Below, piece after piece: positions 46,979 to 61,012 of a stretch of DNA of 64,000 nt. The notes under the pieces are model-generated. The model ran no database searches. It was not told the origin of the DNA and was given only the letters and a program-made list of their open reading frames with translations. Numbering within the stretch: position 1 is the stretch's first letter; the number at the start of each line of letters is the position of its first letter. Source of the DNA: Natronomonas halophila (GTDB lineage Archaea > Halobacteriota > Halobacteria > Halobacteriales > Haloarculaceae); assembly GCF_013391085.1 (NCBI RefSeq), contig NZ_CP058334.1, forward strand, positions 2,852,001-2,916,000, given 5' to 3'. A program made the position numbers and the translations under genes.

Positions 46979-47659
46979 ATGACCGACGAGCCACCATCTC
47001 CGGACGGGCCCGACGAGTTCCCCACCGAAGAGGAACTCCCGGACGAACCGGTAACTGTCGATGATATTGACCCGTTCACTGTTGATGACGGTGCCTTCGA
47101 GGACATCGATGACTTCGCAGCCGCAGAGTGGAAAGAAGATACGACTGCGGACGAGCGACTTCGAACGGTCATCAACAGAACGACCACCCCGAAATCCGCT
47201 GGCGACATCGCCGACACAGCCCTCGTCTCAGAAACAAAAGCTAGAACCTCGCTCAACAAGCTTGCCGAAGAGGGTATCGTGAGAAGCCATCAGACAGACT
47301 CCGGAAAGCTATACGAGCGAGACCCTGAGTGGCATCTCCTCAAACAGATCAGACAGCTCGCCGGGAGCGAAACGCTCGTCGATCAAATCCAGCGAATAAA
47401 ACAGGAACTCGCAGGGTACAAAGCTAAATACGACTCAACCGAGCCAGAGGAACTCCTGGTTTCGGACAAGGAACTCACCCCGGAGGAACTCGACGACGTG
47501 TCTCACTGGCGGACAGCAAAACGAGAACTCACCCACCTCAGAGCCGCATACCGTCTCAAAGAGGCAAAAGAACACGCATACACCGGACCGGAATCGAGGG
47601 ACAAACAGTCGGGTAAGCAGACCACGGCCCCCGATCGCGAGCAGTCCCCGCTCCAGTAA
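46979..47659 (+). CDS. Winged-helix protein, candidate antitoxin
   Basis: 226 residues. Acidic N-terminus (MTDEPPSPDGPDEF), a winged helix (about 60-115, TPKSAGDIADTALVSETKAR then LAEEGIVRSHQTDSGK), then a coiled coil (about 120-170). It resembles a haloarchaeal HTH family (as I recall, DUF7342) often on plasmids. Stop and next start share TAATG, so the next protein is a tight partner. Antitoxin role is inferred from this arrangement only. Confidence 0.72.
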   Translation: MTDEPPSPDGPDEFPTEEELPDEPVTVDDIDPFTVDDGAFEDIDDFAAAEWKEDTTADERLRTVINRTTTPKSAGDIADTALVSETKARTSLNKLAEEGIVRSHQTDSGKLYERDPEWHLLKQIRQLAGSETLVDQIQRIKQELAGYKAKYDSTEPEELLVSDKELTPEELDDVSHWRTAKRELTHLRAAYRLKEAKEHAYTGPESRDKQSGKQTTAPDREQSPLQ

Positions 47660-48132
47660 TGAGGATGGGCAATGGCTCTCCAATCGATTCGGCGGCGATT
47701 GATGAGAGCGTAGAGCAGATGCGCAAGCAACTCGACAACGGAGTTGTCAACGTCCAGTTCCGGTATCAGAAAGGTCAACCGTTCAAACAGCGGGACGGAA
47801 AAGACCACAGAGCGGCACGGGTTACTGTTACCCCTGGAATCCACGAGCAGGGTGGGTATTTTGATATGCAGTGGTGGGCGAATGGAGACTACAAATACCA
47901 CTATCGAGAGGAAGGACTGGAATTCAGGTTCGGGCGCGAAGTAATGAATGAAACCACCAATAAGCCAGTACGGCATTTCCATCCGCCGAGCAATCTCGAC
48001 AAACACCGACAATCCTGTATCGGGATTGAACAACCACCGAGCCTTGTCACAATTGCTGTACTGAAGACGTGGTGGACAGCGGTCGAGAACGGTGACGAGA
48101 CCTTGGTGAACGCACAGGACGGCTTGCCGTAG
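47659..48132 (+). CDS. TumE/DUF6516-like protein, candidate toxin
   Basis: 157 residues, start overlapping the winged-helix stop. A beta-rich core with GGYFDMQWWANGDYKYHYRE, EGLEFRFGREVM, and HFHPPSNLD resembles the TumE/DUF6516 toxin group, where a Tyr/His-rich sheet carries the presumed active site. The similarity is by eye; nothing proves toxicity. With the winged-helix protein it makes a candidate toxin-antitoxin module. Confidence 0.58.
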   Translation: MRMGNGSPIDSAAIDESVEQMRKQLDNGVVNVQFRYQKGQPFKQRDGKDHRAARVTVTPGIHEQGGYFDMQWWANGDYKYHYREEGLEFRFGREVMNETTNKPVRHFHPPSNLDKHRQSCIGIEQPPSLVTIAVLKTWWTAVENGDETLVNAQDGLP

Positions 48133-48462: not shown

Positions 48463-49527
48463 TCAGTCGGCCTGGACGAGCCCCGTCACGGCGTCGTCGG
48501 GCTCGACTGCGAACCGCGCTTGCCCGATATCGTGCACCTCACGCGAGTAATTCCGAATCTGGTACTGCGACGTGGGCACGACCGTCGACGCCGCCTCGAC
48601 CACCTCGTCTTGCGTCAGGTGTTTCTCGGGTGTGAGCCGATCCGCGGCGTAGACGGCCGCCCCGGCCATCGCCATCCGGTGGGTGCCTGACCCGATGGCC
48701 TCACTATCGGCCACGTCCAGCAACCGCTCGCCGACACGCACCAGTTCGATCGCCGCCTCGACGTCGAGGACGGCATCCAGCGCTGCGACGACCCGATCGA
48801 CCGCCCTGTCTCGCACCGGCGGCGCGTCCACGTTCGTCTCGAGTCTGACCTTCCGGGCGCCGGCACACACCCGATCCAGCGACGCCTTCGCATGACGGGC
48901 AACATCGTCCGGTTCGCGCTCGATACCGTGATTTCGCGCCGCTAGAAGCACCGCCCCGGCGGCCAGGCCTTCCCACGGCATCCGCCCACCCGGGAGTCGC
49001 TCACGCTTGGCCTGCTTTAGATATCGACCGGCATCGGTCTGGACGTGCTCGGGGAGCGCGAGGTTGGCGCCGAGCATCCCGATATCCTTCATGCCCTCGT
49101 TCAGCCGCTGGTCGCGCTTGTCATGCATCGTGAACCGCTTGTGTCGCTGCCGCAGACGCTCCATGCGATCCTTTCGCTCCGAGCTCAGCTGGTTGCCCTT
49201 CCCGTCGGTGTTGAGGAAGAAGGTTGTATGGAGGCCCTTGTCGACCCGCAACTGGTTCGTCGGCTCACACGACCACTCGCCGTTCCGACTTTTGTTATCC
49301 GGCGCGTGATCCACCAGGGTCGGCGTCCGATCCAACGTCTCGATGCTCACGACGAGTCCGCAGTCCGCACACACCGACTCATGGTCCGGCTTCCGCACGC
49401 TGCCACCGCATTCCGGACACGTCGCCTGCCACTCAGCGCCACGGACGTCGACGACAACCGCTTCATCGCTATCGTTCGTCTCCTGTTCGCCCGAATCTTC
49501 AAGTTCGATAACTCGCTTAGAACTCAT
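48463..49527 (-). CDS. tfb: Transcription initiation factor TFB (orphan copy)
   Basis: 354 residues. The N-terminal zinc ribbon C37-x2-C40 ... C53-x2-C56 (CPECG and CADCG), a B-finger region, and two cyclin-like repeats (about 120-220 and 225-325) define archaeal TFB. The second repeat is more diverged (LDVADSEAIGSGTHRMAM). The start at 49527 gives the usual haloarchaeal N-terminus. Haloarchaea keep several TFBs with distinct promoter sets; this one lies in acquired DNA next to a HerA-like ATPase, so it may direct the element's own genes. Confidence 0.9.
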   Translation of the reverse strand: MSSKRVIELEDSGEQETNDSDEAVVVDVRGAEWQATCPECGGSVRKPDHESVCADCGLVVSIETLDRTPTLVDHAPDNKSRNGEWSCEPTNQLRVDKGLHTTFFLNTDGKGNQLSSERKDRMERLRQRHKRFTMHDKRDQRLNEGMKDIGMLGANLALPEHVQTDAGRYLKQAKRERLPGGRMPWEGLAAGAVLLAARNHGIEREPDDVARHAKASLDRVCAGARKVRLETNVDAPPVRDRAVDRVVAALDAVLDVEAAIELVRVGERLLDVADSEAIGSGTHRMAMAGAAVYAADRLTPEKHLTQDEVVEAASTVVPTSQYQIRNYSREVHDIGQARFAVEPDDAVTGLVQAD

Positions 49528-49624
49528 TGGGTCTAATCGACCTGAAGGCGCTCGCTGAGTGCCCGACCCCGCGATGCCACTACATCGCGGGTTTTCCACG
49601 GAACCGGACCGACCAGTCACGGCT

Positions 49625-49680
49625 GCGCGCTCTCGCTCGCGCCTTCGCGAGCGCCCTCCTGGGCGCGAGCGAGAGCGCGC
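49625..49680. repeat. Perfect 19-base inverted repeat
   Basis: Left arm GCGCGCTCTCGCTCGCGCC (49625-49643) and its exact reverse complement at 49662-49680, separated by 18 bases. A stem of this length in DNA without a gene suggests an element end, replication site or strong structured RNA. Confidence 0.75.
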
Positions 49681-49999
49681 CTACGTGAGGTGCCACAATC
49701 AAGCCGCGCGCGGTGAGACCGCCCGGAACGCGCGTCCAGCGGAGTAAGCGTCGCGGGGTGAGCACCGATCGGAGCGCAGCCCCCGGCGCTTACCCGCTGG
49801 CGCGAGACCATATCCATTTCAGCCCGGAACGGCGACTGAGCGCCAGCGAGGGAGCCGCACGCCCGGAATGGTCGGTCGCGAGCGCGTGGAGGGCGGCAGC
49901 ACCGAGCGCGGCGAACCGTCGGTCACACACCCGGGCAACCGTTCATTCCAGCCCCGGCCGGCTGACCCACGAGAGCGATGCTGCAAGCCCGCCGGCGAA

Positions 50000-50032
50000 T
50001 TAACCAACACGAGGCGGGATTTTGTTGGTTAA
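50000..50032. repeat. Perfect 10-base inverted repeat, operator or att-like
   Basis: TTAACCAACA (50000-50009) and TGTTGGTTAA (50023-50032) with 13 bases between. It is AT-rich within a GC-rich tract, so it stands out as a protein-binding palindrome. Confidence 0.65.
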
Positions 50033-50128
50033 CACGCTGGGAAACAATTACCGGCGAGCGTCGGTCAGATGGGCTACCAGTGCCAGAGAGCAAGCAAGAG
50101 CGGCGGCTAAAACGGAATATTGTGGGGC

Positions 50129-50668
50129 CTACAGCCGTTGCTCGATGGCGTCGGCCAGGTCCTCCGCGCCACGTTGTCGATACTGCTTCATCTGTCGTCT
50201 GAGCCGACTCCGACGCAGCGTCCCCCAGTCGCCGCGCTTGATGGCGGTCTGCAACACCGTCCAGGGGATCCCGCGGGGCGGCTCGGTCCCCTCGTCGACA
50301 GGCGAGTAATCGAGCACCGTCAGATCATGAGTGTCGAGAACGCGCTGTTGGTTCTGCCAGGTGATATCGAGTTCGACGAGCGCTTCGCCGAACCCGTTGG
50401 TCGGGTCCGGGAGTGACTCGATCTCGCAGTCGGGGCACCGCAACAGATCCGGGTGCCAGACACCGATGATCGAATAACCCTCGAAGACGGTCATCGAGTC
50501 GCCGACTACACAACACTCGTACTGGACGCGCCGGTCGCAGTCGATCGCGCGCGGCGCCTCGTGGGGAATATCACAGACGACGTCGACGGAGCCGCGACCG
50601 ATCGGCCAGCCGTGCAACTGGTCCGTGAGTACGGAAGCGACGTCCATAACCACTCCTTCTGAATCCAT
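50129..50668 (-). CDS. Uncharacterised cysteine-containing protein
   Basis: 179 residues, start MDSEGVVMDVASVL (a second ATG at 50647 is possible). Cysteines at about 30, 44, 52-53 and a CPDC pair near residue 78 suggest metal binding (HPDLLRCPDCEIESLPDP). The C-terminus is basic and helical (TLRRSRLRRQMKQYRQRGAE). It is divergent from the HerA-like gene, 87 bases apart, and upstream of TFB. No family recognised. Confidence 0.65.
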   Translation of the reverse strand: MDSEGVVMDVASVLTDQLHGWPIGRGSVDVVCDIPHEAPRAIDCDRRVQYECCVVGDSMTVFEGYSIIGVWHPDLLRCPDCEIESLPDPTNGFGEALVELDITWQNQQRVLDTHDLTVLDYSPVDEGTEPPRGIPWTVLQTAIKRGDWGTLRRSRLRRQMKQYRQRGAEDLADAIEQRL

Positions 50669-50714
50669 AGTAATCAATATTATTACTTGTTGAATTATAA
50701 CTTGAATAGCCACT

Positions 50715-50724
50715 ATATTAAACT
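50715..50724 (+). promoter_or_regulatory. TATA box of the HerA-like ATPase gene
   Basis: TATATTAAAC, about 37 bases before the ATG at 50756, implying a short leader, or a GTG start at 50735. Confidence 0.45.
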
Positions 50725-50755
50725 GTCTGGCAGAGTGATACGTGAACCACGAGGC

Positions 50756-53700
50756 ATGAGACCCGGGAATCCCCGCCCTGTAACGACGCGCATCGAGGCG
50801 CCGACACAGACGGGAGCGGAGACGCAGCGCTACATCGAGATCACGCCCGCCGAAACGACGCCGACCCCGCGGACGGTCCAGCGCGGCTTCAGGCGACTGT
50901 ACGCGCATCTCCAGCCGGAGGATTCAGGTGGCCTACTCGGGTTGTTCGGCGACCAGCCGGCGACGCTCGAATTCCTGCTGGTCAGCGCTGGCGGCGAGGC
51001 CGCTCCGATGCGGTATCTCGTCGGGACCACGGAGAACGAGGCCGATCTGTCGGGTCTGGAGACGATCCTGCGGAGCGTCTTTCCGAACAGCTACGACCTG
51101 GACCGCGTCGAGTGCCACCCGGAGGCACTGTTGTCGCCGGCGACGACTGGGGAGGCTGACACGACGGACGATATCCACGAAAACGGACCCTATGTCGCTG
51201 GCATAAGGTTCACGCCGGACTGTGACCATCCACTGGATTGGCAGACGCGGCTGGCCACCTATGGTGATGGCGATCGACGCGACCGAGATAGCCGCCCGGA
51301 GTATCGCCGCGGCGCTCGCAGCCGGACCTCCAGGGAGGCGCGCCAGGCGGACGAAAGCGACGAGGGAACGCCACTCGCCGGACTCGCCGAGACGATGGCG
51401 ACTGCCGAGTTCCCCATCGTCTATCAGGTGCTGTTGCGGCCGAAAGCCGACTGGTCGGCCGAACTCGAGGATCGACGGTTCCGCATCGAGGAGGGCCGCG
51501 ATTCCGTCGCCGCGCGCGTCTTTGAGGACCTCATCGGCTCACCCGGGTATGATGAGGACGATACCGGGGAGCGTCGGCTCTCGGCGACGGCCGCCCAGCG
51601 CCTCGACGAACTCCGCGCGAAGGACGCCCGCCGCTCCTTCGAGGTGACCGCCCGCGCGGCGGTCGTCGCCCCGCCGTCGTACTGGGAGACGCCGCGGCCG
51701 GTCCACGAGACCGCTCGAAGACTCGCGACCACGCTGTCGCCGGCCGGCCACACCACACAGGACGTGACCGGCCGCATCCGCACTGACGAGGGCTTTCACG
51801 ACGGCTGTGTGCCGCCCGGCCAGCGCGTCCTCGAGGCGCTCGTCGACCGCGAGCGGGCGCCGTCGCCACCCACCAGCGAACTGAAAGCCAAGTTCGGCAG
51901 CGACGCCCACGCGCTTGTCGCCGACGTTGCGGAGGCGCCCTCGCTGTGCGTCCTCGGCGGCGCGGGCTTGCCGGCGACCGCCCAGCGCGGGCTCGACCCG
52001 ACGGCAAGCGAACGCACCGCGATCGTGCCGCCCGCCCCGCGGACGCTGCAGCGGTACCGCGGCGAGGGCATGTATCTCGGCCACGTCAAGGACGCCGACG
52101 GCCAGACGCAGACCGACCGGCTCGTGTTGCCGCCGGAGCTCCAGACCACGCACAGCCTGGTGCTGGGGAAATCCGGGTCCGGGAAGTCGGTTTTGGCCCA
52201 GACGGCGCTGCGCACGAACCACGCGGCAACGGATGGCCCGACGATCATCGTCGATCGGAAGGGCGACGGCCTCCCAGAGGAGTACCTCCAGACCCATTAC
52301 CGGGAGTACGACGACCTCGAGGACGTCCTCTACTTCGACTGTAGCCGGCTGTTGCCCGCGCTGTCGATCCTGGATATCCGGCCGGATCTCGAGGTGGGCC
52401 GTCCTCGCGTCTCGGCCATCGAGGACCGGGCGGATTTCCTGGAGGAGGTTCTCCGGATGCGGGCGACAGAGGAGACCTACGAGCGCTCGATTCGGTCGCC
52501 GGATATCCTGCAGTATCTGCTGAAGGCGGGTTTCGACACGGTTCACGGCGACGACGTGCTCACGTACGCCGAACTGCAGGGGATGGTGACGCGGCTGCAG
52601 GACCAGCGCGAGCCGCCGGCGGCGAGCCATCCAGCGGTCGCCGACGGCCTCACGTCCGTCGCCGCGAACGCCTCCCGCTCCTTCGACGACGTGATGGAGG
52701 CCGTCAAGGCCCGCCTCGAGAAACTCCAGACCGACAGCCGCCTCTATCGCCTGTTCAACTACGCGCCGGAGGATCGTGACGGCGACATGCCGCTGTTCTC
52801 GTTCGACGAACTGCTGGATGAGGACGTCGTCATCGTCTTCGACACGAGCGACATGCGGGCGGACAGCCAGAAGGCGTTCGTACTGGTCGTCCTCGCGCAG
52901 TTGTGGGACGCATTGAAGCGCCGCGAACAGGCTCGCGGGAACAGCACGGGTCAACCGGCGGCGGCCGACGGTGGCGCAACGGACCGGCAGTCTGACGACG
53001 GTGACTCGGTGTCGGAGTCGCCCTTGGATACGGCCACCGGCAAGGATGCCCAGGCGTCGGCCGATAGCGGTGGTGAGCCGCCGCTGGTGAATCTGTTCAT
53101 CGAGGAGGCGGCCGAGGTGGCGGCGTCGGATCTCGTAACGCAGTTCCTGCGGCAGGCCCGCGGCTTCAACTGTGCGGTCACGCTCGCGATGCAGTTTCCC
53201 GAACAGTTGCGTCATGAGCATCCTGAAGCCTACGAGGAGTTGCTGAACGACGTGTCGACGATCATCGCGGGCAACGTCGGCCACGACCGGCGGCTCGCAG
53301 AGCGGTTCGCGACCGACGACATGCCGGCCGACGCGGTCGCAAACCGATTACGCGCCCTCGAGAAGGGCGAATGGCTGGTGACGCTGCCGGCGCCGTTCGG
53401 TGACGCCGAGCCCCGGCCGTTCCTCATTGAATCGGCGCCGCTGCCGCCCGGCCATCCCGACGGCCCTGAGCCGCTGTCGCCGGCGCGGGAAACCGCGTTC
53501 AAGGGCGCCCTCGACGTCTGCCAGCACCGCACCGCCACGGAGTACGGTCTCCCGATTCAGCGCGACCGACCGGTCACGACCGACCACTCCGAGGCCGGCC
53601 ACACTCCGGCGGATGCGATACCCGCTACAGACACGGACGCCGAGGCGGAGACGGAGCCGTCGATCCAGCTTCACGAGCTCCGGAGTGCGCTACCACACAC

Positions 53701-54634
53701 GAAGCGCCTGCCCGAGATGCTCACGTACGACGCCGATGCCCACAGCATTAGCTGTGAGGGGTGTGGCACGAGCTATGCGGCCAGCTTTGACAAGCTCCGG
53801 GACGCCATCGAGTGCTGCAACAGCCTCGATATCGTCGATCGGGACGACATCCCGATCTGTGACGTGCCGCTGACGCTCAGCCCCGAGGACTGTCTCGACT
53901 CGCCGTATTCCGTTCAGCAGTTGCTCTTCCTGCAGGCCGTCGTTACCGCCAAACGCGGCGGCTACGACCCCGACCTGGAGTACGACCTCCGGCGGGATTC
54001 GATGGTGCGGCTCCGCGAGTACATCAGCATCGAGCAGGACGCCGTCGACGAACTCGTCGCCGACGGGCTATTGAACCGCGACGGCGACCATCCACACCGC
54101 CTGTACACGGTGACCCACGCGGGCCTGGAACTCATCGACGAGCAACGTCGGGAAGGCATCACCCACGGCGACGGTATCGGCGATCTCGGTGAATCCAGCC
54201 TTCACCGCGTCATGGTGCTTGACGGCGCGGCGTTGCTCGACCAGGAATTCGTCGACGACACCGAGTCGGCGGCCGTCGAGGTGCGGACCTACTACGAGAC
54301 GGACGGCTACCGTTATGACGCGGTCGCGCTGGACAGTAGTGGCGAGATCGTCGCGGCCGTCGAGGCCGAGCGGACGAATCACGACCTGCTCGATGCCGCC
54401 CCGGAGGACTACGACAAGCTCGCCGCGGTCGATCCCGAGGCGGCGATCTGGATCGTCGAGAACCGCAGCGGCGCCCATGCCGTCCTCGAGGCGTTGAACA
54501 ACCCGAACGACAACGTGCAGCGCATCGAGAAAACCTATAGCGAGTCGACTGCGCCGCGATTCTTCAAGATTGACTCGCCCGGGCTCACGGATGTCCACAC
54601 GCTCGGCTACCTTCGGAATTCGGTTCTCGAGTAA
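50756..54634 (+). CDS. HerA/VirB4-like ATPase with C-terminal winged-helix and nuclease-like domains
   Basis: 1292 residues. N-terminal domain (1-440) of unknown fold; a P-loop motor with Walker A GKSGSGKS (residues 471-478) and Walker B VNLFIEEAAEV (near 783), with an acidic insertion (about 715-770) between. Then a zinc knuckle (CEGCG, 1000-1003, and ECC near 1022), a winged helix (about 1050-1130) and a C-terminal region with D1188 and E1203-x-E1205 spaced like PD-(D/E)xK nucleases. It probably pumps or processes DNA for a mobile element. The nuclease call is a guess. Confidence 0.85.
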   Translation: MRPGNPRPVTTRIEAPTQTGAETQRYIEITPAETTPTPRTVQRGFRRLYAHLQPEDSGGLLGLFGDQPATLEFLLVSAGGEAAPMRYLVGTTENEADLSGLETILRSVFPNSYDLDRVECHPEALLSPATTGEADTTDDIHENGPYVAGIRFTPDCDHPLDWQTRLATYGDGDRRDRDSRPEYRRGARSRTSREARQADESDEGTPLAGLAETMATAEFPIVYQVLLRPKADWSAELEDRRFRIEEGRDSVAARVFEDLIGSPGYDEDDTGERRLSATAAQRLDELRAKDARRSFEVTARAAVVAPPSYWETPRPVHETARRLATTLSPAGHTTQDVTGRIRTDEGFHDGCVPPGQRVLEALVDRERAPSPPTSELKAKFGSDAHALVADVAEAPSLCVLGGAGLPATAQRGLDPTASERTAIVPPAPRTLQRYRGEGMYLGHVKDADGQTQTDRLVLPPELQTTHSLVLGKSGSGKSVLAQTALRTNHAATDGPTIIVDRKGDGLPEEYLQTHYREYDDLEDVLYFDCSRLLPALSILDIRPDLEVGRPRVSAIEDRADFLEEVLRMRATEETYERSIRSPDILQYLLKAGFDTVHGDDVLTYAELQGMVTRLQDQREPPAASHPAVADGLTSVAANASRSFDDVMEAVKARLEKLQTDSRLYRLFNYAPEDRDGDMPLFSFDELLDEDVVIVFDTSDMRADSQKAFVLVVLAQLWDALKRREQARGNSTGQPAAADGGATDRQSDDGDSVSESPLDTATGKDAQASADSGGEPPLVNLFIEEAAEVAASDLVTQFLRQARGFNCAVTLAMQFPEQLRHEHPEAYEELLNDVSTIIAGNVGHDRRLAERFATDDMPADAVANRLRALEKGEWLVTLPAPFGDAEPRPFLIESAPLPPGHPDGPEPLSPARETAFKGALDVCQHRTATEYGLPIQRDRPVTTDHSEAGHTPADAIPATDTDAEAETEPSIQLHELRSALPHTKRLPEMLTYDADAHSISCEGCGTSYAASFDKLRDAIECCNSLDIVDRDDIPICDVPLTLSPEDCLDSPYSVQQLLFLQAVVTAKRGGYDPDLEYDLRRDSMVRLREYISIEQDAVDELVADGLLNRDGDHPHRLYTVTHAGLELIDEQRREGITHGDGIGDLGESSLHRVMVLDGAALLDQEFVDDTESAAVEVRTYYETDGYRYDAVALDSSGEIVAAVEAERTNHDLLDAAPEDYDKLAAVDPEAAIWIVENRSGAHAVLEALNNPNDNVQRIEKTYSESTAPRFFKIDSPGLTDVHTLGYLRNSVLE

Positions 54635-54782
54635 TCGCCTGCTTCAACGAGCTGGATGTGGCCTTTCTGAACCTTTACAGTTCATTCAGGCTATAGACCT
54701 CCTCCGCGTGAATGCGGAGGAATCCCACTACAGCAAATGAGGCTCGGAGTGGTGGGCCGGAACCCACTACCGGTAGTTAACC

Positions 54783-54829
54783 GGTATTCATGCAGAAAGC
54801 CGCGCCGTTCACGGCGCGGAGGATGTCAC
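54783..54829. repeat. Solo IS200/IS605 right-end-like sequence
   Basis: About 47 bases nearly matching the segment after tnpB at 58928-58977 (GGTATTC, CATGC, then GTTCACGGCGCGGAGGATGT). Here the hairpin is perfect: CCGCGCCG, TTCA, CGGCGCGG (54800-54819). No tnpA or tnpB accompanies it, so it is a solo end or a residual guide-RNA scaffold. Confidence 0.6.
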
Positions 54830-54852
54830 CTGTTGGTTGCTTCGGCGTACAA

Positions 54853-55137
54853 TCAGTCATCGTCCGCAGTGTACGCTCCACCACGGCGCTTGATTCGAGC
54901 AACCACGATGCGCCGTTCGTTCTGACGGAACGTCACGGCGAGACGGAACCCTCCAACACGTACTTTCTTTCGTGGACTGTTCTGGAGTGGTTCGCCGTAA
55001 TCGGGTGGGTCACGCCACGGGGAATCGACGATTTCGTCGAGTTTGTCGAGAATACGGTCTTGCTCGTGTGGGTCGAGCGCGGCGAGGTCATCCTGGGCCT
55101 TCGATGAGAGTTCCCACGTCCAGTCGCCGTCACTCAT
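54853..55137 (-). CDS. RelE/ParE family toxin
   Basis: 94 residues. The RelE fold pattern: WTWELSSKAQDDLAALDPHE, a middle LQNSPRKKVRVGGFRLAVTF, and IVVARIKRRGGAY. Such toxins cleave ribosome-bound mRNA. The gene overlaps the ribbon-helix-helix antitoxin by eight bases, in the order antitoxin-toxin. It lies just after the solo right-end-like sequence. Confidence 0.88.
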   Translation of the reverse strand: MSDGDWTWELSSKAQDDLAALDPHEQDRILDKLDEIVDSPWRDPPDYGEPLQNSPRKKVRVGGFRLAVTFRQNERRIVVARIKRRGGAYTADDD

Positions 55138-55414
55138 CGCCGTCCGTGCCGAACCGCTCGCGCGCCTCCTCGGCGCTCATGGTCCGCCCCTGGCGGACAT
55201 CCTCTTCGGCTTCGAGGAGGGCGACGAGTTCGTCGCGGTCGAACGTCGGGAACTCGATCGCGTCGCGCAGCGTGTACCGGATGAACTCGCTCCGACTGTT
55301 GAAGCCGCGTCCCTGCCACGTCTCGTCTATCTCGTCGAGAAACGACTGGGTGACCTTGAAGTTCACCGTGACGATCTCGTCGTCGCCGTTCTCTTTTGTG
55401 GTTGCTCCAGACAT
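55130..55414 (-). CDS. Ribbon-helix-helix antitoxin
   Basis: 94 residues from the ATG at 55414. The ribbon-helix-helix segment is VTVNFKVTQSFLDEIDETW ... RSEFIRYTLRDAIE, and the acidic tail (VRQGRTMSAEEARERF) would wrap the RelE toxin. Expected to repress its own operon by binding a promoter palindrome in the region above 55415. Confidence 0.85.
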   Translation of the reverse strand: MSGATTKENGDDEIVTVNFKVTQSFLDEIDETWQGRGFNSRSEFIRYTLRDAIEFPTFDRDELVALLEAEEDVRQGRTMSAEEARERFGTDGDE

Positions 55415-57259: not shown

Positions 57260-57652
57260 ATGGAGTATCATCTGCAAACCGGGTCGCATACAGTGTACGC
57301 GCTTCAGTATCACTTCGTGACTGTCACGAAGTACCGTGCCGATATTCTCACGGATGAGCGGCTTGAGCGTGTCGCTGAAATCGCCCACGATATTGCAGAC
57401 GACTTCGAGGCCGACATCAAGAACGTGGACGGAGGAACCGACCACGTTCACATCCTGTTTCGGACCAAACCAACCACAGACCTCACGAAGTTCATCAACT
57501 CGCTCAAAGGCGTCACGTCCCGACGGATTCGGTCGGAGTTTCCCGAAGTGACACAGACGCTTGAAGATGCGTTCTGGCAACCGGGATACTTCCTCGCCAC
57601 GACCGGCCAAGTGAGCATTGACGTGCTGATGGACTACGTGGACGGCCAGTAG
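57260..57652 (+). CDS. tnpA: IS200/IS605 TnpA, HUH Y1 transposase
   Basis: 130 residues. The HUH motif is H62-V-H64 (GTDHVHILFRT) and the catalytic tyrosine is Y126 (VLMDYVDGQ). It cuts and rejoins single-stranded DNA at the element ends. Full length and without frameshifts, so the element may be mobile. Immediately followed by tnpB with one base between stop and start. Confidence 0.96.
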   Translation: MEYHLQTGSHTVYALQYHFVTVTKYRADILTDERLERVAEIAHDIADDFEADIKNVDGGTDHVHILFRTKPTTDLTKFINSLKGVTSRRIRSEFPEVTQTLEDAFWQPGYFLATTGQVSIDVLMDYVDGQ

Positions 57653-57653
57653 C

Positions 57654-58925
57654 ATGACCGCAACAACCACGAAAACTCTGGAGGCGACACTCGCCCCACC
57701 GACAGCACACAAAGAGCGGAAACTGTGTGACCTGCTCGAAACCTACCGTGAGGGACTTCACGAGGCGTTCGACGCCGGGTGTGACACGATGAGCGCAACC
57801 AGCGACGTGGTGACGCCTTACGACCTACCGTATCAGGCGAAAGCGGCCCTGTGCAGCTACGTCCCGCAACTTCACGACACCTACGACGCACAGGAGTTAG
57901 ACGACGACCATCCGGTTCGGCTCACCAACCAAGCCGCCGAGTTTGACCACTCGGCGGCGCGTGACTACGAGTTCACATGGTGGGCACCGCAACCCGGTCG
58001 CGGGACGAATTTCTGGATACCGCTTCGTATCAATCCCGAACAAGACGGTTTGTGGCACGACCTCGTACACGGTGACGCTTCGGCGGGACAACTCCGACTG
58101 CAACGCAACCGCACGTCGTGGACACTCCACGTCACCGTCGAGTTCCCGGTCGAACAACCGGAGTACGAACCGGCAGACGACGATGTAACACCAGTCGGCT
58201 TCGACATTGGCGAAGCACACCTGCTCGCGGGCTGTGCTTGCGAGCAGGGGGCTCCGACTGACCCACTACTCATCAACGGTGGTCGCGCCCGTCACCTTCG
58301 CAAAGAGATGTTCACGACGCTCAAGCGACTCCAAGAGCGTGACGCCGCACAGTGGCGGATAGACGAGCGATTTGACCACTACCAGAACGCACTCACTGAC
58401 ATCATCGAGAAGGCGTCTCGACGTGCCGTCGAGTACGCCTGTCGATTCGAGAAGCCAGTCCTCGTGCTGGAAGACCTCTCGGACATCCGCAAAGACCTCG
58501 ATTACGGCGAGTGGATGAACCGACGGCTCCACGCATGGGCGTTCGCTCGGCTTCAACAGCGCATCGAGGACAAAGCACGAGAGGCGGGGCTTCCGGTCAG
58601 ATACGTCCGACCGGAGTACACGAGCCAGACGTGTCACGAGTGCGGTCACATCGGGCACCGGAACGGTGACGAGTTCCGGTGCCAGAACGACGTGTGTTGG
58701 GTATCGGAGTACCACGCAGACATCAACGCGGCGGTCAACATCGCTGACCGCCACGACCCGTGGGGTGAGAGCCTGCCGCTGAAACCGGCGGGCGATGACA
58801 TCTCACGGGATGGGAGCGCCTGTGACAGCGCCACGACCCACCGAGAGACGAGCGAGGAACCCTCGCAGATGACTCTCTCGACTTTCCACGGGTCGGAACC
58901 CTCTGCCAGCAACAGCGAAACGTAG
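57654..58925 (+). CDS. tnpB: IS200/IS605 TnpB, RNA-guided nuclease
   Basis: 423 residues, normal size. The RuvC-like triad is D184 (VGFDIGEAHL), E273 (VLEDLSDI) and D356 (YHADINAAVN). The zinc finger is CHECG and CQNDVC just before the last aspartate. TnpB uses a guide RNA made from its own 3' end to cut DNA and keep the element in place. All catalytic residues are present, so it is probably active. The C-terminal tail after the RuvC domain is about 55 residues. Confidence 0.96.
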   Translation: MTATTTKTLEATLAPPTAHKERKLCDLLETYREGLHEAFDAGCDTMSATSDVVTPYDLPYQAKAALCSYVPQLHDTYDAQELDDDHPVRLTNQAAEFDHSAARDYEFTWWAPQPGRGTNFWIPLRINPEQDGLWHDLVHGDASAGQLRLQRNRTSWTLHVTVEFPVEQPEYEPADDDVTPVGFDIGEAHLLAGCACEQGAPTDPLLINGGRARHLRKEMFTTLKRLQERDAAQWRIDERFDHYQNALTDIIEKASRRAVEYACRFEKPVLVLEDLSDIRKDLDYGEWMNRRLHAWAFARLQQRIEDKAREAGLPVRYVRPEYTSQTCHECGHIGHRNGDEFRCQNDVCWVSEYHADINAAVNIADRHDPWGESLPLKPAGDDISRDGSACDSATTHRETSEEPSQMTLSTFHGSEPSASNSET

Positions 58926-58927
58926 CT

Positions 58928-58977
58928 GGTATTCCCATGCCGGGAAGCCGCGACGTTCACGGCGCGGAGGATGTCAC
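58928..58977 (+). ncRNA. Probable 3' part of the TnpB omega RNA / right end
   Basis: The block after the tnpB stop contains a near-hairpin (GCCGCGACG, TTCA, CGGCGCGG) and GGAGGATGTCAC. It closely matches the solo copy at 54783-54829. The position, at the 3' end of tnpB, is where known omega RNAs end; the RNA itself is inferred. Confidence 0.5.
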
Positions 58978-59872
58978 GCTGAGGGTAGGAGGGAGTGCAG
59001 TTCGTTTTCAGCGGGTAGCAGGCAGATGTCCGCAGAGGCTGGTATGTTCGAAATCCGAGAGGCGCGACGTTGTGTAACGACCGATAGAATCGAGACCATC
59101 CATCAGTCGCTCTCGACTGCGGATCAGGATTAACAATCGCGCTGAACGGTCGGTATCCTAGTCTGAAACGGTTCGGAGGGGAACGAGGCCCTGTACGATG
59201 GGAGGAAAACACCTCTTCTGAGGGCGCTTGTCACCCGCGATTGCAAATCCCGAAACCGCAGGACAGGAACCGATTGTTCTCCTTTACTGGACTCTCTTCG
59301 CGCACCCAAACGCTGCGAACAATCTCAGATATCTGTATTCCCGAAACGCCACTATTTCGGCATCTAAACGACCTCTATCGCCGCCTTTCGCATCGATACT
59401 CGCCCTCATATTGACGGCCGAAACAACCGATGTACAATCCAAAAACCGCATGCCAGCAACCGATTGTTGAAATATTTCTCTAAATACCCCCAGTATCCAG
59501 ACCTATTGTTCCTCTCCTAATGAGAAATCAGCCCATAGAGATGTTCTTCCGACCAATGAGTTCGATTGTTACAGCACCGCCTCCGTAACAGCACCACAGC
59601 ACCCACACATATTCGCGGGGCTGAACGCCGCTTGTTTTGCCATTTAATCTGCGCTAATTCCCGGAACACGCTGTTCAATATTTCTCATCCGCTAACTGAA
59701 GATTGTATATCGCTCCATCTCGCTGGACCTGAAACGGGGGTTGGGCCGGGTGGTGGATGAACGATAAAATCCGTGTAGAGTTTGACGGCGTGAAGGCCCT
59801 TTGATTAAACTGGTCTCCTCTTGCCGGGAGGACGACGGGAATCCCTCCGAGACGGAATCCGGTCAGAGACCA
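58978..59872. other. AT-richer non-coding tract with direct repeats
   Basis: About 890 bases between the insertion sequence and the primase gene, clearly lower in GC than elsewhere (59230-59720 especially). It contains direct repeats at 59253/59443 and the 10-base copies at 59471/59677. No frame in it looks coding. A replication origin of a former plasmid is one possibility. Confidence 0.6.
59253..59686. repeat. Cluster of short direct repeats
   Basis: A 26-base unit starting AAACCGCA and ending AACCGATTGTT occurs at 59253-59278 and 59443-59468 (23 of 26 bases equal). AATATTTCTC occurs at 59471-59480 and 59677-59686. CGATTGTT recurs at 59563-59570. The repeats are in the same direction, as iterons would be. 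Confidence 0.6.
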
Positions 59873-61012
59873 CTATCGCCAGCTGAAGAGTGACCCTTCG
59901 GAGTCGCGTTCGTCTTCCAGTTCCGCTTCGAGGGCCTTTCGACGGGAGCGCTCCTTCTCCAGTTCGGCCTCCAGTTTCGCTTTCTCTTCGAGCACCTCAC
60001 GAAGCCGTTGTTCGAGCTCCTCGATGCGCTCGACTCGCTCCCGTTCGCCGGAACCGAGAGTGGACGGCTCCGTTGCCAGTGGCTCTGCCCGTGTCGACGA
60101 TATTGTCGAGTCGCCTACGGGTTCGTAGAACTCGCTAGTGCCGGCGATCACCCGCTCGATCGTTTTCTCGCCGTACGTACTCCCGTCCGCGAAGTGCTGT
60201 TCGTCCCACTTCTCACGCATCAGCCCTGAGTCCCGAAACAGTCGGTCGATCTGTCGGGCATCGCCGCCGGTCCAGAACGCCAGCAGCGAGCACAGCGCCA
60301 TATCGGCTTCCGAGTGGCTCTCGTAGCCGCTGGTGTTCCCGCGGTAGAGTGCTTCGAACTTGTCGCCGTTTGCGGCGTTCTTCGCTTTCCGGAGGAGTTC
60401 CTCGTCGTCGATCCCCCCATGTGTCTGGCCGTTTCTGGCGGCCTGGTCGGACGCTGACGTTCCTTGGTCGTCGGGTGCGAGGTACTCGTCATATACAGTC
60501 ACAAGCGCGTCTTCGCGTTTCTTGATCGCTGTAGGCGTCCCGTCGACGTGGTCGGCGGTCACGGTGAAGAAGCGCGCCGTCTCGTAGAGTTCTAGGTCGC
60601 CCTTCCGATTGTGGCCCTCCGGAAGCGACCCAGTCACGAGGACGTGATAGCCGGTTCCCGAGGGACTGACCTCAGTGAAGGAATCAAGCGTCTCGATGAC
60701 GTCCTTGGCCCACTCGTCCGGATGGCCAGTCTCGGGGTCCCGGCAGTCGTCGAGATCGACGCCGACGATGGGGTCTGCCTCTGTGAACACGAAGCCGAGG
60801 CCGTCCTCCTGCCCGAACTGTACTTGCTCGCGAGCTGTCCCGAACGCGGCCCATGTTTCGGGGTCGGTCGTGGACGCGAACTCGCCACTACTGGGATCGA
60901 TCGGGACCTTTGTCGTCTTCCCATCGCGTTCTTCAGCACGCCAGCAGAGCCACTGGTCGTACTCCAGGAGTGTCTCCGGAATCGCGTCTCTCGTCGGTGG
61001 AGCTGAGGACAC
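59873..61012 (-). CDS. Primase-polymerase (AEP, phage NrS-1 type) with coiled-coil tail
   Basis: 379 residues. The AEP catalytic residues are visible: D86-L-D88 (VGVDLDDCRD), the SPSGTGYH motif ending at H123, and RFFTVT (147-152). A PriCT-like helical region (about 200-290) and a basic/acidic coiled coil (about 310-370, LEQRLREVLEEKAKLEAEL) follow. It would make primers for replication of an element. The SF3 helicase domain usually fused in NrS-1 polymerases is absent, as is any separate helicase here. Confidence 0.82.
   Translation of the reverse strand: MSSAPPTRDAIPETLLEYDQWLCWRAEERDGKTTKVPIDPSSGEFASTTDPETWAAFGTAREQVQFGQEDGLGFVFTEADPIVGVDLDDCRDPETGHPDEWAKDVIETLDSFTEVSPSGTGYHVLVTGSLPEGHNRKGDLELYETARFFTVTADHVDGTPTAIKKREDALVTVYDEYLAPDDQGTSASDQAARNGQTHGGIDDEELLRKAKNAANGDKFEALYRGNTSGYESHSEADMALCSLLAFWTGGDARQIDRLFRDSGLMREKWDEQHFADGSTYGEKTIERVIAGTSEFYEPVGDSTISSTRAEPLATEPSTLGSGERERVERIEELEQRLREVLEEKAKLEAELEKERSRRKALEAELEDERDSEGSLFSWR

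Follow-up and report, generated by a model that had tools for sequence, protein, structure and literature searches.

A VirB4-type ATPase with a fused predicted nuclease module, near a TFB with a conserved leader, in a Natronomonas chromosome

The window analysed here (the whole 64-kb stretch of DNA, from a 3.21-Mb haloarchaeal chromosome of Natronomonas) carries a 1292-aa ATPase, predicted to be of VirB4 type with a fused C-terminal nuclease module and assigned to subfamily A below (50756–54634, plus strand). Close to it on the minus strand lie the genes for a 172-aa cysteine protein (50129–50647, or to 50668 if an upstream ATG is used) and a 354-aa element-type TFB (48463–49527). For the TFB start codon, 49527 is the best position; the open frame extends upstream of this position, and we read the upstream part as leader RNA. 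The first-pass annotation had placed all three genes head to head around an 87-base promoter region. The gap is present (50669–50755), but only the cysteine protein and the ATPase face each other across it, with the TFB start 0.6 kb further on, and there was no obvious promoter motif common to the upstream regions of the ATPase and TFB genes. Because no Pfam family covers the cysteine protein and its homologues, seen in 12 of 142 genomes, are all weak, we place it outside any conserved module.

Several genes of mobile-element character accompany this core. A DUF7342 HTH gene (to 47659) and a small partner gene (from 47659) occupy 46979–48132 on the plus strand; relatives of the pair occur near the ATPase in 14 of 57 loci versus none of 24 control regions, which here and below are chromosomal regions that were not matched for island content. 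Genes in all fetched regions were called with a simple script. One relative of the small partner gave a weak TumE toxin match. Immediately downstream of the ATPase are a ParE-type toxin gene and a ribbon-helix-helix antitoxin gene (54853–55414), and an IS200/IS605-type TnpA/TnpB pair lies at 57260–58925; of the 57 loci, 17 have TnpB relatives close to the ATPase, versus 0 of 24 controls. Two sub-threshold matches to the Rfam family HgcC (54739–54842 and 58868–58990; 31.5 and 24.2 bits, gathering score 50), one of them at the 3′ end of TnpB, are perhaps a TnpB guide-RNA-like end and its copy. About 5 kb from the ATPase, a minus-strand gene encodes a 379-aa NrS-1-type primase-polymerase (59873–61012; PF22763, E 1e-31). 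No VirB4, VirB6, relaxase or integrase gene was found near the window copy of the ATPase, no integrase was recognised by eye among the predicted genes of the window, and the window contains no direct repeats of tRNA-Glu or tRNA-Leu that would mark attachment sites.

By sequence, a HerA/DUF87 motor alone passes the Pfam cut-off in the ATPase, and the curated VirB4 model TIGR00929 stays below its own (E 0.045, 12 of 643 bits). In the predicted structure, the N-terminal domain (residues 13–418; 50792–52009, plus strand; pLDDT about 60–90) adopts the VirB4/TrwK N-terminal fold, matching TrwK (8rtb_A) with a VIA-align Z of 15.1 over 264 residues at 4.8 Å, and the part of the protein upstream of the C-terminal module scores Z about 15 against TrwK/VirB4. 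TrwB, DndH and HerA score clearly lower than TrwK and match the motor part only. Confidence in the motor domain is modest (mean pLDDT 64), and both of our predicted structures, this one and that of the C-terminus, rest on shallow alignments; read at that level, the window ATPase is a VirB4-type conjugation motor. Conservation scored on 54 relatives fetched from genomes includes a Walker A motif, GKSGSGKS (residues 471–478; 52166–52189, plus strand), with G474, G476 and K477 invariant in 54/54, and a Walker B motif, VNLFIEEA (778–785; 53087–53110, plus strand), in which E783 is kept in 52/54 and E784 in 53/54. A CxxC...CC zinc knuckle follows (1000–1021, with C1035 nearby; 53753–53860, plus strand), whose C1000 and C1003 occur in all 54, C1020 in 51 and C1021 in 47. 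Relatives of the ATPase were found on 143 plasmid records and, often in multiple copies, in 82 of the family's 146 genomes; this genome has a second one at 2.01 Mb, and IMG/VR viral contigs yielded none. We also observed a protein of about 480 aa (L061, 6310–7767; also in L055, L119, L120 and L121), by eye a motor that has lost its P-loop, with GCYVxG in place of GKSGSGKS; it has no Pfam match and in one case is encoded immediately upstream of the ATPase.

The C-terminus was modelled with AlphaFold2 from the last 323 residues and 16 homologues (mean pLDDT 83, about 82–96 in the nuclease core). The model contains a MarR-like winged helix (about residues 1043–1126; 53882–54133, plus strand; pLDDT 84–94), which has many MarR-family structural matches at Z about 6–7, and then a PD-(D/E)XK-type core of alpha-beta-beta-beta-alpha-beta topology (about residues 1148–1248; 54197–54499, plus strand). 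D1188 lies on strand 2 and E1203-x-E1205 at the end of strand 3, giving an E-x-E motif instead of E-x-K; D1143, E1146, H1150, D1188, E1203, E1205 and D1220 are invariant in 54/54 relatives. Structural neighbours of the core are nearly all PD-(D/E)XK proteins, from families as varied as AF1548, Can2, Cdn1, PaqCI, EcoT38I, McrC-type and EndoMS/NucS. Since each such match reaches only about Z 6, the assignment rests on the topology, the motif and the consistency of the neighbour list taken together. A PDB sequence search with the C-terminal profile returned nothing, and comparison of the model with BFVD structures gave no match at E ≤ 0.001. The first-pass annotation had read the C-terminus as nuclease-like and had seen motor, zinc knuckle, winged helix and nuclease joined in one chain; a PD-(D/E)XK core is indeed present in the predicted model, and all four elements are there and conserved far beyond chance among the 54 relatives. 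On this modelled fold we take the C-terminus to hold a PD-(D/E)XK-type core and to be a predicted nuclease. A stand-alone protein of about 290 aa with winged helix and D-ExE motif, related to the ATPase C-terminus and lacking the motor, is encoded in two loci (L183, 7936–8811; L184, 7987–8862).

A winged helix followed by a restriction-nuclease-type domain also describes the MOB_C relaxases, whose conjugative plasmids carry a coupling protein gene and then a gene for a winged-helix/restriction-type relaxase (PMC12857230). MobC of CloDF13 and TraX of pAD1 are encoded immediately downstream of the coupling protein, and in four of four MOB_C plasmids the gene order, motor then nuclease, matches the domain order of our ATPase; coupling ATPase and relaxase are separate proteins there, whereas the window ATPase is one chain. 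The likeness of the two domain pairs is a resemblance only, and by eye they share the order H, D, ExER, (I/V)W. PF13814 (Replic_Relax) gave no match at E 1 in 17 members of the ATPase family and none above cut-off in haloarchaea, with MobC as positive control matching at 8e-22; hhalign of the ATPase module against profiles of four MobC proteins gave P 0.1, with 4 of 150 column shuffles scoring as high, and unrelated winged-helix families outscore MobC against the module. Membership of the module in MOB_C was therefore rejected, homology not being established by a family model that is absent and a profile comparison that is not significant. With MobC profiles not significant and unrelated families scoring higher, the H-D-ExER order is a mere lead, and the module may be said to work like a relaxase, not to be one.

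The relatives of the ATPase fall into two subfamilies with different surroundings. Members of subfamily A, 36–48% identical to the window ATPase, are solitary, and their neighbourhoods contain no T4SS genes except for one weak match. Those of subfamily B, about 30% identical, sit in haloarchaeal T4SS operons, which we surveyed in 18 operon neighbourhoods fetched from genomes (the L180 operon being fragmentary) and one plasmid. The operon order is three uncharacterised genes, VirB6/TrbL (PF19590, E 4e-229), VirB4, the B ATPase and a primase. In 19 of 19 cases examined, the B ATPase is directly followed on its own strand by a primase-family gene or, three times, by a gene of about 670 aa in that slot; the primases are archaeo-eukaryotic (with the nuclease form of the ATPase) or of the NrS-1 primase-polymerase type (eight cases). 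B proteins themselves come in two builds, one with the nuclease module and one whose C-terminus ends in a D5 primase-type wing instead (L170, L172, L174–L182; one member, L175, matches PF03288 at E 2e-6). That the nuclease-less variants carry this wing at the same place suggests a C-terminal slot for DNA-processing domains. The window primase-polymerase (59873–61012) is 52–57% identical to genes directly behind subfamily-B ATPases, and its family recurs in 13 of 57 subfamily-A loci versus 0 of 24 controls. The second ATPase of a T4SS operon is a coupling protein by position only, and its fold is VirB4-like. In this genome, a complete-looking T4SS operon (G000:C1:1944568-1951383; L249) has no second ATPase behind VirB4. 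A subfamily-A ATPase lies 65 kb from the operon here and 32 kb from one of this kind in another genome (G117), and we infer that such operons fit a subfamily-A ATPase serving a channel encoded elsewhere.

The window TFB has a zinc ribbon, one clear cyclin repeat and VDKGL replacing the usual HD(K/R)GL. Haloarchaea have many TFBs, and orthologues of this one (at least 49% identity to the window TFB, full-length or broken) were therefore counted apart from the others. Nine of about 17 such orthologues in 142 genomes have a subfamily-A ATPase within 20 kb (in the window, G118, G131, G122 twice, G047, G049, G067 and G143); other orthologues are in islands without the ATPase. By our estimate, the surroundings of the ATPase make up about half a percent of the DNA searched, so even pronounced clustering of accessory genes in islands does not readily account for the linkage. 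It is this orthologue-based count, well above chance, that carries the linkage of TFB and ATPase; any TFB within about 8 kb of the ATPase was found in 16 of 57 loci versus 2 of 24 controls, a comparison not decisive alone. The ATPase tree contains a six-member clade, drawn from three genera, in which 6/6 loci hold a window-type TFB. The window ATPase forms a long branch outside that clade, from which we conclude that TFB and ATPase have changed partners on at least some occasions. Since the majority of ATPase homologues lack a TFB within about 8 kb, the TFB is a common companion of the ATPase, not an obligatory one. The pairing suggested in the first-pass annotation thus stands as a linkage well above chance and falls short as a rule, a TFB being present in only 16 of 57 loci; that annotation had also named in advance what would reduce the locus to an ordinary plasmid ATPase, a model lacking a nuclease core and homologues lacking a TFB neighbour, and the outcome is mixed, with the core present and the TFB optional.

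The roughly 125 nt ahead of the TFB start codon show conservation across genera and, in the window, a predicted folding z of −4.3. The structured leader delimited there (49528–49651, minus strand; 116.8 bits to model R1) ends at the start codon, and leader lengths differ by non-multiples of three, so that the reading frame is not kept. Its predicted fold comprises an outer stem, GAAGGCGC/GCGCCTTC, inner helices, a very variable hairpin and a small hairpin just before the start codon. The variable hairpin has perfect pairing in all 15 sequences, and arms swapped between sequences pair at 48%. For these 15 leaders, in an alignment that was not model-fitted and whose variable-hairpin columns were picked from the hairpins of each sequence, the covariation score was 0.175 versus 0.094 ± 0.012 in shuffles; for 66 distinct leaders, in an alignment fitted to a covariance model and thus leaning towards it, the score was 0.209 versus 0.083 ± 0.006. 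The 66 sequences contain 103 double-changed cells versus 30, with change on both sides in 16 of 26 pairs, and the signal is lost once the partners are shifted by one to three columns. Covariation on the raw MAFFT alignment missed two variable hairpins because the aligner had split their arms.

The covariance model, built from the 15 leaders and used to find further copies, stops precisely at the start codon in all 75 matches examined. Behind these 75 leaders lie 60 genes for an OB-fold DNA-binding protein and 15 for a TFB (14 of window type). The OB-fold proteins and leader-bearing TFBs often share an N-terminal stretch, MSSxNxxxxEVSVxEQ; with both kinds of protein starting so similarly, the leader together with the first codons looks like a unit that can be exchanged. 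Of the family's 136 genomes, 62 contain the leader. It lies within about 8 kb of the ATPase in 31 of 57 loci versus 0 of 24 control regions, and no Rfam family scores above its gathering threshold on it. From sequence comparison, then, we consider the TFB leader a previously uncatalogued, covarying putative cis-element RNA. An inverted repeat read from the sequence, GGCGCGCTCTCGCTCGCGCC (49662–49681) and GGCGCGAGCGAGAGCGCGC (49625–49643; whole repeat 49625–49681, minus strand), is conserved across genera upstream of the TFB (alignment A8); it shares bases with the 5′ arm of the stem that closes the leader and might fold into a competing hairpin.

TFIIB beside T4SS ATPases is known in thaumarchaeal ICEs and, according to earlier work cited there, in other archaea (PMC6563490). 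The suggestion of a machine not described under a known name was accordingly too strong, since there are published archaeal elements in which TFIIB accompanies VirB4/VirD4 ATPases (PMC6563490). Those ICEs and the window locus share a TFIIB beside a conjugation ATPase and no recognised relaxase (PMC6563490); our locus differs in being haloarchaeal, in the nuclease predicted to be fused to the ATPase and in the predicted folded leader of its TFB, and no pairing with ParB was seen. VirB4/TrwK and VirD4-type T4SS ATPases share the N-terminal domain and motor fold, and subfamily B shares their place in operons, whereas the window ATPase differs in its fused zinc knuckle, winged helix and predicted PD-(D/E)XK module and in the solitary position of subfamily A. 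Fusexin-bearing integrated haloarchaeal elements likewise carry HerA, VirB4 and TraG-type ATPases (PMC9259645), and the ORF25 ATPase of pR1SE-type plasmid-vesicle plasmids, likened here by description, is a VirB4/HerA/TrwB-like haloarchaeal plasmid motor proposed to be a DNA loader (PMC10818511).

Taken together, we read the locus, with a probability of about 0.5, as the DNA-processing section of a conjugation-type mobile element of haloarchaea that resides in the chromosome without channel genes of its own. Under such a scheme, the winged helix and zinc knuckle would recognise element DNA, the nuclease domain would cut one or both of its strands and the motor would pump the DNA to a T4SS provided from elsewhere in the cell, the ATPase acting as coupling protein and nicking enzyme in one chain. 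The primase-polymerase would rebuild the complementary strand, and the OB-fold protein, encoded here elsewhere in the genome, would coat single strands. At element promoters, TFB would bring in RNA polymerase, and the output of TFB and OB-fold protein would be set by the leader RNA. A bolder proposal, to which we give roughly half as much credence, is that the winged-helix/PD-(D/E)XK module, built into the motor, may be the missing DNA-nicking relaxase equivalent of haloarchaeal conjugation, with the leader RNA acting post-transcriptionally as a joint switch of TFB and OB-fold protein for transfer.

Related motors also occur in defence systems, which makes an anti-virus or anti-plasmid role the main rival: a HerA-like motor with a fused nuclease would degrade foreign DNA, as in HerA-Sir2, HerA-DUF4297, DndH or Mad8 of MADS. 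The best PADLOC match on the motor is mad8 (E 3.7e-12), the ATPase has structural matches to the DndH C-domain and to HerA-Sir2 complexes, and it is a solitary gene in variable islands alongside toxin-antitoxin genes. However, PADLOC found no MADS, Dnd or Ssp partner genes among eight window genes, HerA complexes match the motor part only while the N-terminus is VirB4-like, and close cousins of the ATPase sit in T4SS operons with primases, so we think defence unlikely. Because subfamily B occupies T4SS operons, directly ahead of a primase gene, and the window ATPase has a primase of that primase family 5 kb away, mobile-element DNA transfer or processing is favoured over it.

HerA-type motors elsewhere resolve or resect DNA within the cell, and the primase-polymerase and OB-fold neighbours would suit a helper of replication, repair or partition that handles element DNA in this way inside one cell, with no transfer. 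A VirB4-type N-terminus and a slot in T4SS operons would be unexpected for a purely internal enzyme, and we hold this to be slightly less probable again than defence. Broken copies do exist (split ATPases in L012 and L031, a split TFB in L066), and the lack of channel genes near the window ATPase would also suit a decayed, functionless remnant of a conjugative element that came to lie near the TFB by chance. Against this, catalytic and Walker residues are invariant in 54/54 relatives over deep divergence and the window frame is intact, making decay the least probable of these explanations, and an improbable one.

In archaeal conjugative plasmids and ICEs, VirB4/VirD4 ATPases are present and a recognised relaxase is missing (PMC6563490, PMC12857230). 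If the locus is the DNA-processing part of a conjugation-type element, the predicted nuclease fused to a second T4SS ATPase would be a concrete candidate for the archaeal nicking enzyme, and a testable one, since relatives occur on plasmids of culturable strains. A motor-nuclease this widespread could help to explain how archaea transfer DNA between cells without a known nicking enzyme, and a putative leader RNA found on just two kinds of gene would offer a ready test case for control, at the RNA level, of an archaeal general transcription factor.
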